Positions 25,417 through 37,964 of a DNA stretch of 37,964 nucleotides are shown in pieces. The notes under the pieces are model-generated. The model saw nothing but the letters and a program-made list of their open reading frames with translations. It was not told where the DNA came from and did no database searches. The position numbers and the translations under genes are program-made. This DNA comes from a virus, in IMG/VR virus record IMGVR_UViG_3300022748_000027, positions 1 to 37,964 of that record; one strand, given 5' to 3'. How positions within the stretch are numbered: position 1 is the stretch's first letter; the number at the start of each line of letters is the position of its first letter.

Positions 25417-25443
25417 CAACAAATAAAATATCAAACAAACGAA

Positions 25444-32339: not shown

Positions 32340-33538
32340 TTAATTCATCCCTCCAATTGCTAACGTAGATGGTGGGCAAAGCCTATCAAACGCATATCGT
32401 AATGGGTCGATTTGGTGATTAAACGCATCAATTGGGGTTTCTGATTTCTTGTCGTGCCACACATAGTTGCGTAGTTCTTTGATAAGGTTAAGTGAGCTTG
32501 CGTCAATAATCATTTCATAGTCTTGTAATCTTTTTATGCCACTCCTTACACTATCCTTACCTTTGTTAGCCGGTACAACATTCAGTCCGTGTTGCCTCAA
32601 GTCTATTATAGTTCGTGGGTCGGCACTATCAGCAATGATAAGCGAGTTGCTTGGCTTAACGTATGATTTGAGTAGTGATATGAGTTGTTGGGTTGAGTTA
32701 CCCGTTTTGTACAATTCCTCTTTAGCATAGATAACCTTTCGTTTTTTATCTACCGCCACCTTAATTAGCGAATCGGGGTCATTCGAGAAACCAAAGTCCA
32801 AGCCATAGACAAAAGGCAAAGACTCATCGAATTCTCCAAGTTTCCAATTTTGGAAGATAGCACCTTGCAAAGTACCAACTTCGCCATCGATATACACTCG
32901 ACACCAATTAGCCCAGTACTCGGATGTCTTAGCTTTCTCTTGCTTGATTAATAACTCCGATAGTATTTCGGGTGGTAGTGCCTCGTTGTCGTGATAGGTA
33001 AGAAGTAAGAATTCCGAGTCGGGTTCTGTCAAAGTTTCCGTGTGTACCCAAAACTCATTGTCGGGATTAAAGTCTATCCATGTTTGATTACTTCTGACCA
33101 TTAAAGCATCGGCAATGGCAAAATCTATGTGATTTGCTTCGTTTAAAAACAACACATCTCTCTTGCCGCTTGCCTTTGCCTTGCCTTGTGAATCAAATGA
33201 TGTGAACTGAATCAATGCACCATTTGAAAACTTATATTCCATTGGATTACTTCGCCAGTGATCTTGTATCCATCTGTTTGTATCCATCATCACATCTTGG
33301 AATATCCGCACTGCACCATTCCTTACTGCAGGTATTGACTCAGCTACAACGGTTATAATATGCCGTGGGTTCTTCGTTGCGTAGTCAATTAGGATGGGTA
33401 TGATACCGTATGTCTTTCCAATTGCCCCTACTCATTACTAAGTAGGGGCTAAAGTCCCGCACTTGTACCACCCTGAATAACTTTCTTACGGGCGGTCAAG
33501 CGCAATAATTTATTAATAGCCGTTGTTCTTTGAAACAT
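32340..33538 (-). CDS. terL: terminase large subunit, reading frame interrupted inside the Walker A motif
   Basis: ATG 33538 opens MFQRTTAINKLLRLTARKK followed by VIQGGTSAG, then meets a TAG stop at 33449-33451. Reading resumes at 33416 in another frame with KTYGIIPILIDYATKN, AESIPAVRNG and continues to the stop at 32340. Joining both gives 386 residues with Walker A at 22-30, Walker B DVLFLNEANH (catalytic Glu about 121) and the nuclease domain (YGLDFGFSNDPDSL, LIIADSADP, DAFNHQIDPLRYA). Skipping bases 33417-33454 (38 nt) restores frame exactly. Without this the 28-residue N-terminal piece is separate and a GTG at 33311 would begin a protein lacking Walker A. It overlaps the small terminase stop by one base. 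Confidence 0.85.
33417..33454 (-). other. 38-nt hairpin insert in the terminase P-loop, candidate translational bypass element
   Basis: The insert follows takeoff-like codon GGA (33455-33457) and ends with landing-like GGA (33417-33419), both on the minus strand. In between, GCCCCTACT and AGTAGGGGC (plus coordinates 33424-33432 and 33441-33449) form a perfect 9-bp hairpin with an 8-base loop. In the upstream frame, stops occur at TAG (33449-33451) and further on. It sits at the Gly|Lys junction of the ATP-binding loop, also a favourite site for introns and inteins. Confidence 0.75.
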
Positions 33539-34047
33539 TATTTGTCGGGGAATAGTGGTTGTTCTTGTTTTAATTCTACTTGGGTCTTCGTTGCCGCATA
33601 GTCACCCTCTATCTTTGATATTTCGGATTGTAATTCGCGAAGGGCTTTCATCAATTGCGCCCTTTCGATGTACGTTAGCTTCCTTTCGATCTCCATGTAC
33701 TGCAATTCTTTTGGACTCTTTACGATGTCGGGGGTAATGTTGCTATCGAGCATCCTTTGAATGTCATCTGCTTGCCGTTGCAAATTCATCAACCTTTCAC
33801 TTTTCGTTTTTAGACCGTTTGAGAGGTTTTCTATTGTGTTGTGTATGGTAGCCTCATTTATCTTTGTTTCGCGCTTATCAATGAATTCTGAATGCTTTTC
33901 ATTGGCAATTTTCCAATACTTATCAAATGTCCTACGGGTCATGCGAAACTTTGCGCAAAAAAGCGAAGCAACATCAAGATATTTGACGTTGCCCGCTTTC
34001 AATTCTTTCGCAATAAATGCCGTATAGTCTTCGCTACTTTTCGCCAT
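33538..34047 (-). CDS. terS: terminase small subunit-like, 169 aa
   Basis: ATG 34047 (MAKSSEDYTAFIAKELKAG) is preferred to a TTG at 34131. The first about 60 residues include VASLFCAKFRMTRRTFDKYWK, a helix-turn-helix-like DNA-binding region. A long coiled coil follows (residues about 75-145). DNA-binding N-terminus plus oligomerising coiled coil plus position directly before the large terminase (TAATG overlap) supports the call. The transcript begins just before the ATG at a TACATTTG promoter box. Confidence 0.72.
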   Translation of the reverse strand: MAKSSEDYTAFIAKELKAGNVKYLDVASLFCAKFRMTRRTFDKYWKIANEKHSEFIDKRETKINEATIHNTIENLSNGLKTKSERLMNLQRQADDIQRMLDSNITPDIVKSPKELQYMEIERKLTYIERAQLMKALRELQSEISKIEGDYAATKTQVELKQEQPLFPDK

Positions 34048-34051
34048 GCCG

Positions 34052-34059
34052 CAAATGTA
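34052..34059 (-). promoter_or_regulatory. late promoter box TACATTTG before the terminase gene
   Basis: On the minus strand TACATTTG is followed by CGGC and the ATG of the small terminase gene at 34047. The same spacing (four bases) occurs at 6548 and 25372. No good -33 TTTG is present at the normal distance, so an activator may be needed. It lies just downstream of the end of gene 34061-34246. Confidence 0.55.
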
Positions 34060-34060
34060 A

Positions 34061-34246
34061 CTATTTTTTTGATTTACGTTCCATTGCCCTTCTTTGCCTT
34101 CTGAGTTCCTTACCCGAAAGATAAATGCCAATGTCGTTGTTTACCCGTGCAAGTTCAAACGTCTTAAGCACCTCATTGAGTTGTTGGGTTTCTTTTGTTT
34201 TTAGCCCAAAAAATTCGGCCATTTCTTCTGCTTTATTTTTGTCCAT
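34061..34246 (-). CDS. hypothetical charged protein, 61 aa
   Basis: Starts MDKNKAEEMAEFFGLKTKETQ and ends RRQRRAMERKSKK. Helical and very basic at the C-terminus, suggesting nucleic acid binding. It begins 3 bp after the 68-residue gene and lies just upstream of the terminase promoter. Function unknown. Confidence 0.65.
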   Translation of the reverse strand: MDKNKAEEMAEFFGLKTKETQQLNEVLKTFELARVNNDIGIYLSGKELRRQRRAMERKSKK

Positions 34247-34249
34247 TCC

Positions 34250-34456
34250 TTAATATCCTTTAACTTTCAAACCGATGTCGATTAGTTCCCTTATCACCTT
34301 GCTTCTATTTTGATTTCCTATGCAAGTGTGAAGTCTTTTGTATAAGGTTTTATTATTTGTTCCGAACGTAACTGACTCAAGCACTCTACGTTTGTCGATG
34401 ACGCTCATAAAATGCTCAAGCCGTTGTTCTAGTGTTAATGGTAGTTTTGCGGGCAT
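34250..34456 (-). CDS. hypothetical small protein, ribbon-helix-helix-like C-terminus, 68 aa
   Basis: Starts MPAKLPLTLEQRLEHFMSVI. The C-terminal QNRSKVIRELIDIGLKVKGY has the RxxVIRxLIxxGL pattern of ribbon-helix-helix DNA-binding proteins, although the preceding strand is not obvious. It overlaps the methyltransferase stop by one base (TAATG). It might regulate the early/late switch located just downstream. A weak call. Confidence 0.6.
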   Translation of the reverse strand: MPAKLPLTLEQRLEHFMSVIDKRRVLESVTFGTNNKTLYKRLHTCIGNQNRSKVIRELIDIGLKVKGY

Positions 34457-36618
34457 TAAAATAGTGTAACTTGTTCTTTTAGTTTTACTGCTGATGCTAC
34501 ATTTGATTTTGCTAAATCGTAGTATGATTCTTTCAATTCAAATCCAATAGCCTTTCTATCCATTTTTACCGCTTGGAATACTTCTGAGCCTATGCCCATG
34601 AAAGGTGTCAATACTGTATCGCCTTTATTTGAGTAAAGCAGTATCAATCTTTCAATAGTGTCTAATTGAAGTGGGCAAATATGTTTTTCATCATTATCAT
34701 CGCGGCCATTTCTATAACCTTGTAATGTGTTTCCATAATCTATATCCATCCATACTGGTGAAGCTATCTTTTGCCACAAATCAACACTCATTTCTGTATT
34801 TGTTACGGGGTCAGTTCTATCGCCGTCTTTTCTGAATATCATTACATAGTCGGGTATTCCAACTCTGCTCATAGTTGAATCTTTTTTTACTTGCTTATGA
34901 AGCAATCCCAATGCTTTAGTTCTTTGCATTTCTATTACTGGGTCTTTCCAAATTGTTACTCTTGAAGCATAAATAAAGCCCGCTTCCTCGAATGCCTTGA
35001 GTATCATTCCTGAAAAGTCGCGCAATCCTATAAAACCTTCTTTACCTTTTTGAATAGGTAAGTCCATACAATGAACGCATACATTTCTGCCTTGCTTAAT
35101 CACTCGGTAAAGTTCTTTAATTAAAAAACCGAACTGAGTTAAAAACTCATTATAGTCTTTTGAATTACCCATATCCTCTAAGTGGCTTGAGTATGTATAA
35201 AGCTCGGCAAACGGCGGGCTAAATACTGAAAGACCTACTGATTCTGATTCTACCTCTTTGATTAATTGAACGCAATCGCCTCTTTTTATCTTATACCATT
35301 CATTTTGCACCTCGCTGGTATCTAATGTTCCTGATGTCATTAATTGACCTTTTAAATTAGCGTTTATTGCTTTGCTCATTTCGTCTTGCATGATTTCAAA
35401 TTGCTTTTGTTTATTGTTTATTGATTGAATTACATTTGCCATGGTATCGGTTGTAATTAAATAGATATTTACTTCTTCTTTTTGCCCAAATCGGTATGAA
35501 CGTCTAATAGCTTGGTATAATCCCTCAAAGCTAAAATCTAATGAAGCAAAAATCTGATTTCTGCAATTTTGATAGTTCATCCCAAAACTAGCTATCTTAG
35601 TTTTTGTTATCAAGATTCTAAATTCATTATTTGCAAATCCTAGCAATGTTTTTTCTTTCCATTCGTTGGTATCTGAGCCTTTTACTTCTCTTGCTTCGGG
35701 TAATAGCTTTTTAAGCATTTCGCCTTCTTCATTTTGCTTTATCCATATTATAAAGTTTTCGTTAGGCTTTGAATTAATAATATTCACAACTTCATCAAGC
35801 CTTTCAATCTTAGTCAATCTCAGTTCACTATTGAAATTCGTTGCTGATATGATTGCATCATTAAATAAGCTACCATTATCGCGTTTTGGCGTCAATATCA
35901 TTTTGTCGATAAGGTTTAGGCTTGGCAAATTATATCCATCCATTTTAAAACCTATATCTTGCGGCTTATTGAGCATAATAGCCCAACTGCCTACAAACTG
36001 ATAAAACATTTTAACCGCATGGCCTTTTAATCTCCATTTGGCCGTTTCGCCTCCATCATGAACAAAATACATTGCAAGCATTTCATTTCTGCTCATAACA
36101 TCCAAAAACTCTGAATGATTCCCTAATTCCATTGGGTCGTTCGGGCTTGGTGTGGCCGTGCATGCTAATTTGTATGGTGTCAATGCAAAAAAGTCAATAA
36201 TTTGTCTTTTAATTGAGCCTTCAAAGTTCTTAAGTATTGAACTTTCATCAAGTACAATTCCTGAGTAAATCGAGCAATCAATATTTTCTAACTGCTCATA
36301 ATTGTTCACGTGGATATTATCCATGTTTACACCAAACTTTAATCCCTCTTGTTTAGTTTGGCCAACAACGGCCAATGGCGCAAGTATCAATACAGGCTTA
36401 TTTGTATGGTTGTTTACTTGCTTTGCCCACTCCAACTGCATAAATGTTTTACCAAGTCCGCAATCGGCAAAAATTGCATACTTACCCGCTTTCAATGCTC
36501 GCTTAACTATGAACTTCTGAAAATCAAATAATGAAGGGTTAAGTTCTGAATCTGCAACATCAAATCCGCTTTCAATGTGTTGCTTCTGTTTAGTTTCTAA
36601 AAACTCTTTATAATCCAT
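34456..36618 (-). CDS. SNF2-type helicase fused to a DNA N4/N6 methyltransferase, 720 aa
   Basis: ATG 36618 (MDYKEFLETKQ) is chosen over ATG 36669 because the latter starts inside a hairpin. The N-terminal about 430 residues are an SF2/SNF2-like ATPase: Walker A FADCGLGKT (residues 50-60), motif II VLDESS, motif III TATPSPND, and motif VI QAIRRSYRFGQ. The C-terminal about 260 residues are a beta-class methyltransferase: SPPF (catalytic motif IV) and TPFMGIGSEVFQAVKMDRKAIGFEL (SAM-binding motif I). Together they would methylate phage DNA while moving along it, or remodel it. DESS replaces the usual DEAH/DEAD box. Confidence 0.87.
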   Translation of the reverse strand: MDYKEFLETKQKQHIESGFDVADSELNPSLFDFQKFIVKRALKAGKYAIFADCGLGKTFMQLEWAKQVNNHTNKPVLILAPLAVVGQTKQEGLKFGVNMDNIHVNNYEQLENIDCSIYSGIVLDESSILKNFEGSIKRQIIDFFALTPYKLACTATPSPNDPMELGNHSEFLDVMSRNEMLAMYFVHDGGETAKWRLKGHAVKMFYQFVGSWAIMLNKPQDIGFKMDGYNLPSLNLIDKMILTPKRDNGSLFNDAIISATNFNSELRLTKIERLDEVVNIINSKPNENFIIWIKQNEEGEMLKKLLPEAREVKGSDTNEWKEKTLLGFANNEFRILITKTKIASFGMNYQNCRNQIFASLDFSFEGLYQAIRRSYRFGQKEEVNIYLITTDTMANVIQSINNKQKQFEIMQDEMSKAINANLKGQLMTSGTLDTSEVQNEWYKIKRGDCVQLIKEVESESVGLSVFSPPFAELYTYSSHLEDMGNSKDYNEFLTQFGFLIKELYRVIKQGRNVCVHCMDLPIQKGKEGFIGLRDFSGMILKAFEEAGFIYASRVTIWKDPVIEMQRTKALGLLHKQVKKDSTMSRVGIPDYVMIFRKDGDRTDPVTNTEMSVDLWQKIASPVWMDIDYGNTLQGYRNGRDDNDEKHICPLQLDTIERLILLYSNKGDTVLTPFMGIGSEVFQAVKMDRKAIGFELKESYYDLAKSNVASAVKLKEQVTLF

Positions 36619-36630
36619 AATGTAATGAAA

Positions 36631-36677
36631 AAGCCCCCACAACGAACGCCAGTGCGAGTGACGTGTCATGAAGGCTT
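36631..36677 (-). terminator. terminator-like hairpin before the helicase-methyltransferase gene
   Basis: On the minus strand AAGCCTTCATGAC (36665-36677) pairs with GTTGTGGGGGCTT (36631-36643) over 13 bp with four G-U pairs and a 21-base loop, followed by TTT. The start codon 36618 lies about 12 bases beyond. Its sequence and position resemble the hairpin at 4455-4497, so both may be attenuators. Confidence 0.55.
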
Positions 36678-37451: not shown

Positions 37452-37964
37452 TTCTTACTAATTTGAATTTTGTTTGTTGTTTTGCGTATGATTTAAAATT
37501 TTGACTTGTACCATGAATAGCCCAATCAGTAGCTATTTCATCCCAATTCTCTGCTTGCTCATCCGCTTCTGTCTTTTTGTAGATGGGTGTGAAAAGTGAC
37601 TCAACAAGTTTTACGCAGAATACACCTCCTATGCCTCCATAATAATATTCGCCCATTTCAGATTTTCTGAACATATCTCCTTTTTTGACCGAGTGATATG
37701 GCATATCGCAAGGCGAAGCATACCCCACTATCTCGCGTTGTTCGGGTTGGTTCGGGTTAGCGTAACATTCCTCATCATCTTGTGTAGTTTCTGCTTTACA
37801 ATACTTGCAAATGTGTGGTTGTTCGGGTTGGGTTTCCTTATACTCTATCAATTCTTTTAGTTCGTCAAGGGTCAGGATGTTGTTGTTGAACTGCGAAGAA
37901 GTAGATAAAAGGTTGAAGTTGTTTTTTGTCGTAACCCCATAATATTGATTAGTTAAATCAAATT
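37438..37964 (-). CDS. hypothetical zinc-ribbon-containing phage protein, C-terminal part
   Basis: The reading frame is open from the right edge to the stop at 37438. It contains LIEYKETQPEQPHICKYCKAE, then EECYANPNQPEQREIVGYASPCD, that is a CxxC plus a later Cys pair that may bind zinc, then GEYYYGGIGGVFCV and a C-terminus ending VRNENN. The 5' part of the gene is at 163-661 on the left; the joined gene would have 341 residues. A TTG at 37851 is not a separate start. Function unknown. Confidence 0.8.
   Translation of the reverse strand, partial: FDLTNQYYGVTTKNNFNLLSTSSQFNNNILTLDELKELIEYKETQPEQPHICKYCKAETTQDDEECYANPNQPEQREIVGYASPCDMPYHSVKKGDMFRKSEMGEYYYGGIGGVFCVKLVESLFTPIYKKTEADEQAENWDEIATDWAIHGTSQNFKSYAKQQTKFKLVRNENN
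37821..37964. repeat. terminal repeat, right copy
   Basis: Same sequence as 19-162 with three mismatches; 37839-37964 is identical to 37-162. The right copy is preceded by an extra 81 bp (including a CxxC coding segment) that is absent from the left copy. The 12-base GTTCGGGTTGGG occurs here at 37821-37832 and its first 11 bases also occur at 37740-37750. Confidence 0.95.

Follow-up and report, generated by a model that had tools for sequence, protein, structure and literature searches.

The terL gene and its insert

The DNA analysed here, hereafter the window, is the whole stretch of 37,964 nt of the IMG/VR record IMGVR_UViG_3300022748_000027 (positions 1–37,964). The gene for the terminase large subunit (terL) lies on its minus strand, and an insert of 38 nt splits the Walker A codons at 33454–33417, confirming a preliminary description of this DNA. 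The locus is organized as follows.

33538..34131, minus strand: upstream ORF in the terS position, resembling (by eye) the ORF 5' of terL in locus L005
33455..33538, minus strand: terL 5' segment, 28 codons, MFQRTTAINKLLRLTARKKVIQGGTSAG; aligns with the N-termini of about 60 relatives
33457–33455, minus strand: proposed take-off codon GGA, the last codon of the terL 5' segment
33417..33454, minus strand: insert proposed to be bypassed, 38 nt (35-nt gap plus landing GGA), absent from most relatives
33449..33451, minus strand: in-frame stop UAG, one codon (CUU, 33454–33452) past take-off; its G pairs within the stem
33424..33449, minus strand: hairpin of 11 bp with a GUAA (GNRA) tetraloop, arms GCCCCUACUUA/UGAGUAGGGGC, one U.G pair
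33417..33419, minus strand: proposed landing codon GGA, identical to the take-off codon
32340..33416, minus strand: terL 3' segment, KTYG..., 358 codons and a stop; encodes the remainder of the ATPase and the RNase-H-like nuclease

The terL start codon (ATG, 33538–33536, minus strand) overlaps the stop of the upstream ORF, for which Pfam and PHROG searches gave no match. After the take-off GGA, the minus strand reads CTT TAG, the hairpin, AATT and GGA, followed by AAG ACA TAC. The stop codon reported near the take-off site is present, although it follows one codon after GGA and is not immediately adjacent to it. The 3' segment matches PF17288 (E 9e-20) as well as phrog_2 and phrog_5653, all terminase large subunit, and its frame is open from the landing codon to the stop at 32340. 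Skipping from GGA to GGA joins the two segments into an intact product of 386 residues, as originally proposed. The window contains a single copy of the insert, and nearly all of the ~60 relatives aligned to its N-terminus are uninterrupted.

Two established kinds of intervening sequence were rejected for the window. An insert of 38 nt that is out of frame and holds an in-frame stop is not an intein, and the ribozyme core of group I or II introns takes up at least about 200 nt; an Rfam search gave no match at the insert site.

Elsewhere in the window, positions 34456–36669 (minus strand) encode a helicase fused to an N6/N4 DNA methyltransferase. The window ends, 1–162 and 37722–37964, overlap imperfectly (147 nt at 98% and 29 nt at 100%, offset by 81 nt), and the genome is probably circularly permuted with an untidy join.

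A family of interrupted terL loci

Related loci were gathered from a protein search of IMG/VR, a pattern search, the following of each lineage and one set of bacterial genomes. This search for related terminases with and without the insert yielded 57 further interrupted loci, along with close relatives that are uninterrupted. Including the window, 58 interrupted TerL P-loop loci are found, 52 of the hairpin type (37–43 nt) and 6 with short inserts (6, 10 or 11 nt). They contain 33 distinct element sequences, distributed over several TerL lineages and many separate metagenomes, and fall into about 13 hairpin and 3 short element types. Some of the 58 loci belong to close strains, so that the number of independent events is smaller.

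The IMG/VR protein search identified L005 and L049, the inserts of which are 38 nt long and lie two codons further upstream than that of the window. Their hairpins have the shape of that in the window with a different sequence, and their loops are GCAA and GAAA. The pattern CCCCT..TAGNAAT..AGGGG retrieved ordinary terminators as well as P-loop inserts in other TerL lineages. The layout of the hairpin type consists of a take-off codon, usually one sense codon, UAA or UAG, a stem arm of C4-5, a GNRA loop, G4-5, an A-rich spacer and the landing codon. The C-run of the stem mostly begins six nucleotides past the take-off codon, and the position of the stop is kept in most element types. Among the short types the stop comes directly after take-off, which is also one way of reading the L205 group and L347; an early stop codon is missing in L005, L049 and the CGA-UGG types.

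Short inserts lacking a hairpin occur near the P-loop in L211, L212, L220, L232, L269 and L272. Their forms are CGC-UGA-CGU (carried by L232, L269 and L272), CGC-UGACAAA-CGA and CGC-UGACAAAC-CGU, all at the same Arg codon. These CGC-UGA(N)n-CGN inserts are candidates for natural stop-hops.

Among 80 TerL relatives in bacterial species genomes, one carries an insert (L532, on a Chitinophagales MAG contig). The element was not found among the matches listed in protein and DNA searches of isolated phages in INPHARED, and a literature search, with subscription papers and preprints outside its scope, returned no report of the family. The hosts are probably mostly Bacteroidota, judging from the nearest bacterial relatives and the nearest phages and, for the other lineages, by extension.

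Hairpin structure and covariation

Folding of the insert region of the window gives a z-score of −3.4, and none of 200 shuffled sequences is equally stable. The hairpin had been described with a stem of 9 bp; the stem in fact spans 11 bp including one U.G pair, and the AGGGG stretch previously likened to a Shine–Dalgarno motif is its 3' arm. A covariance model built from 12 relatives, with the window left out, finds positions 33452–33421 with 34.1 bits (E 4e-8), a match far beyond chance. Across 13 distinct hairpins, 96.2% of cells are paired and 5 of 10 pairs are changed on both sides. The covariation score of the stem in this set is 0.521, compared with 0.212 for shuffled data (0/500) and at most 0.123 when the alignment is slid. 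GNRA loops are observed in all distinct hairpins except those of the L487 group and L532.

A model search of the same records and of other genes revealed no strong second copies of the element; each record has at most one strong match, located at terL. A weak match in the window, at 25417–25389 (minus strand), corresponds to an intergenic terminator-like hairpin, the loop region of which, GCAGAAATGTGA, resembles the loops of some of the putative bypass elements. Terminator-like hairpins such as this one are a possible source of the bypass hairpins. The stem sequence alone was discarded as a diagnostic feature, since an exact search with the hairpin yielded just terminator-like hairpins in unrelated phages; what is diagnostic is the place in terL. 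Separately, a CCCC-GNRA-GGGG hairpin is conserved among L089, L105, L106, L146 and L152, in surroundings that these loci share and that are apparently non-coding and unrelated to terL.

Proposed take-off and landing codons

The insert lengths of 6, 10, 11 and 37–43 nt cover all three frame offsets, and the sequence downstream is always in the TerL frame. Every proposed junction restores Walker A. The take-off/landing pairs of the hairpin types include GGA/GGA (window), TCT/TCA, GGG/GGA, GGT/GGA, GCT/GCT, ATT/ATC, CGT/CGA, CGT/CGT, CGA/CGA and CGA/CGT, and those of the short types are CGC/CGT and CGC/CGA. The two codons are synonymous in 9 of the ~13 hairpin types and in all three short types. 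In matched pairs, codon bases 1 and 2 are identical and differences are confined to base 3, as predicted by the re-pairing of one tRNA and not by passive duplication of a target.

The mismatch types belong to one lineage (L448/L451/L458, L203, the L487 group and L532) and combine a GCN take-off codon with GUA or AUA before the point of resumption, so that re-pairing would be poor. Pairing of tRNA-Ala(UGC) with GUA could occur through a central G.U alone, and bypassing accounts poorly for the mismatch types. In the L205 group and L347 two adjacent codons are repeated, hence the take-off is ambiguous. The second codon (CUU, UGU, CGU, AAC and others) was rejected as take-off, as by eye it does not match the landing codons in most families. 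With regard to the nascent-peptide stimulator and 5' stem-loop that belong to T4 gene 60 bypassing, GGG is present 5' of the site in 15/18 cases versus 76/210 in the comparison, counts that ignore relatedness.

Sporadic distribution and segment exchange

In the protein tree, the intact L043 and L006 are 0.023–0.03 away from L005, and the distance between L523 and the intact L489 is 0.000. The 17 carriers of the L285–L364 lineage are scattered on the tree of the terL body, requiring 14 insert changes, at least 10 of them forced by supported branches, versus a mean of 15.7 when shuffled. At equal divergence of the body, carriers share the 5' flank (0.86 and 0.85 versus 0.62 and 0.74) and not the 3' flank; a cis requirement on the 5' side could add to this sharing. 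In the pairs L208/L210 (body 98.9% identical) and L005/L043, identity drops mainly from about the end of terS to shortly past the site. A drop limited to a short segment around the site is as expected of gene conversion.

Homing endonucleases and inteins at the site

An endonuclease gene is located directly 5' of terL in 18 of 53 carriers and in 5 of 368 intact loci (p 8e-14, by motif detection and uncorrected for relatedness). Within one lineage, the corresponding counts are 8/17 and 0/62 (p 9e-7, relatedness likewise uncorrected). The genes between terS and terL end ~90–150 nt ahead of the P-loop codons. NUMOD4-HNH_3 genes are found 5' of terL in L285, L286, L305, L308, L338, L342, L349 and L352, and another in L509–L514. 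An HNH motif is also present there in L222 and L375, and GIY-YIG-like genes in L451 and L523, the Pfam match of L451 being below the cut-off. No adjacent endonuclease gene is recognized in 35 of the 53 carriers, among them the window, where searches of the record for HNH_3 and HNH and a Pfam search of the neighboring ORFs were negative. As no endonuclease gene lies between the upstream ORF and terL, the window copy is an orphan.

As exceptions to the cassette pattern, HNH-motif genes are observed directly 5' of uninterrupted terL genes in L372, L483, L486, L505 and L506; those of L483 and L505 look like a different HNH class.

In L380, L381, L382, L384, L390, L399, L400, L405 and L409, intein-like inserts are present just before GKS in the TerL P-loop. 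Their position in intact relatives is between GGSKG and S-GKS, beside the site of the putative bypass elements. In L049 (3001–5010), the terL gene with the bypass-type insert is interrupted a second time behind GLDFGFS, by an intein-like insert that contains an HNH_3 match. The earlier suggestion of an intron or intein scar at the P-loop is borne out for the site, where inteins and, apparently, homing events are concentrated. It is not borne out for the insert, which is neither an intein nor the scar of a known type of intron.

Interpretation of the insert

The insert is very probably a programmed translational-bypass element and, in evolutionary terms, that half of a homing cassette which gives protection; we infer both the bypassing by ribosomes and the protective role from sequence comparison. 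The original proposal that the terminase is made by translational hopping gains support from the use of all frames, the synonymous codons, the covarying hairpin, the insert-free relatives and the nearby endonuclease genes. Ribosomes would translate the first 28 codons of terL, bringing GGA into the P site. Two codons ahead lies the stop, where the stable GNRA hairpin has its base; here the peptidyl-tRNA-Gly would release GGA, and the ribosome would cross the 35-nt gap, re-pair with the second GGA and resume at AAG. The predicted product is an intact TerL of 386 residues with the Walker A sequence GGTSAGKT. A free-standing endonuclease, with its gene between terS and terL, would attack competing phages at the conserved P-loop codons; in the carrier this target would be disrupted by the bypassed insert, as proposed for MobA and the 50-nt insert in T4. 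In the window the endonuclease gene is missing, and the element would persist alone.

Bypassing might be real and yet regulate TerL synthesis rather than protect from an endonuclease. Such a role would fit the majority of carriers, window included, in which no adjacent endonuclease gene is recognized, and in T4 bypassing gives about half full-length product (PMC11194080). We nevertheless consider it unlikely, because the sporadic presence in near-identical phages, the P-loop site shared with inteins, the enrichment of endonuclease genes and the exchange of short segments look like homing. As this reading accepts bypassing and disputes its role only, the probabilities of the rival explanations are not mutually exclusive.

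The main rival is splicing of the insert from the mRNA, the splice point falling after the second base of the codon. This would require a new class of 37–43-nt hairpin introns, removed by an unknown dedicated enzyme and acting as homing-protection elements in TerL P-loops. A junction between bases 2 and 3 gives the correct residue in every family, including those with GCN/GUA and GCG/AUA, and the hairpin is structurally conserved. However, besides the missing Rfam match, group I or II introns are much larger than these inserts; splicing offers no explanation for the agreement, in most families, of bases 1 and 2 of the second codon copy with the first while base 3 is free, and it is at odds with the 6–11-nt inserts at the same site, which are implausible as introns. 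Bypassing is favored because it accounts jointly for the diversity of frames, the codon synonymy, the stop codon, the hairpin and the short forms, and splicing appears very unlikely.

Inactivation of terL, or dispensability of its P-loop half, with the insert as a scar, would agree with the UAG that closes the reading frame in the window. TerL is essential in tailed phages and requires Walker A. Between carriers, dN/dS of the downstream segment is 0.01–0.15, with group medians of 0.03–0.12 similar to those of intact genes, and the downstream terL frame is under purifying selection. These intact and selected frames, together with the conservation of codon pairing and hairpin across families, make inactivation highly improbable.

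Stop readthrough combined with frameshifting would produce a TerL with ~13 extra P-loop residues, and some insert lengths are indeed multiples of three (39, 42 and 6). This is scarcely credible, since residues added inside GxxxxGK are expected to destroy Walker A, and the remaining lengths need an extra frameshift, for which a shared slippery site is not seen.

An assembly or sequencing error might be suspected in a single environmental record with imperfectly overlapping ends, but the probability is negligible given that the layout recurs, in 33 distinct sequences, across dozens of contigs of different metagenomes, and that six contigs (L509–L514) share one identical element. Inserts of the same architecture in other lineages, insert-free close relatives and upstream endonuclease genes argue against error and inactivation alike.

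Comparison with known bypassing systems

The comparison with T4 gene 60 made in the preliminary description proves apt, as the relatives show the same architecture and homing endonuclease genes on the 5' side. Gene 60 resembles the window in its matched GGA take-off and landing codons, in having a UAG and a hairpin near take-off and in the location early in a phage gene (PMC5009743, PMC11194080). Its gap of 50 nt is similar to the 35–40 nt of the TerL elements. The hairpin loop of gene 60 is UUCG, in contrast to the GNRA loops found here, and the TerL elements differ further in the gene (at the P-loop), in sequence and probably in host. Their stop is usually separated from take-off by a single sense codon, the stem beginning past the stop, and, unlike gene 60, they comprise many insertions with several codon identities. 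As with MobA in T4, relatives of the window have a gene for a homing endonuclease directly on the 5' side, and carriers of the TerL elements share the 5' flank. In T4 an endonuclease gene came to lie 5' of gene 60, and cleavage may be prevented by the 50-nt insert (PMC5009743). The likeness strongly suggests that the TerL elements are of the T4 gene 60 type.

The byp elements of Magnusiomyces capitatus are spread over 12 genes of a single mitochondrial genome, at 81 positions, and the A site there holds an unused codon (PMC5009743). Like the TerL elements, they are numerous short inserts, often of non-triplet length, in essential genes and with a codon match that is sometimes imperfect. The TerL elements differ in their site, which is the TerL P-loop, and in their number, with a single insert in each phage record. 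A candidate terminase bypass in Streptomyces phage Hau3 depends on a UUA codon and is described as not serving insert avoidance (PMC5009743); it shares with the TerL elements a phage terminase gene and the proposed bypassing, but its gap is much shorter. The 29-nt hop proposed for an adhesin of Prevotella loescheii was hard to make work in E. coli and had no follow-up (PMC5009743). It comes from the Bacteroidota, like most bacterial relatives of the TerL elements, but concerns a bacterial gene. Synthetic stop-hops have been described in E. coli, and a natural in-frame stop-hop was not known (PMC5009743). With matched codons flanking the stop, CGC UGA CGU in L232, L269 and L272 is formally similar to these constructs.

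Significance

The best reading of the family is as programmed bypass elements linked to homing, in the TerL P-loops of phages that probably infect Bacteroidota. For long-range bypassing in phages and bacteria, T4 gene 60 had been the single solid case and might have been a freak; the T4-type bypass trick now appears to be widespread in environmental phages. Terminase genes that phage annotation calls split or 'truncated' may be real, and with the 6-nt CGC-UGA-CGU forms an in-frame stop-hop would for the first time be known from nature.
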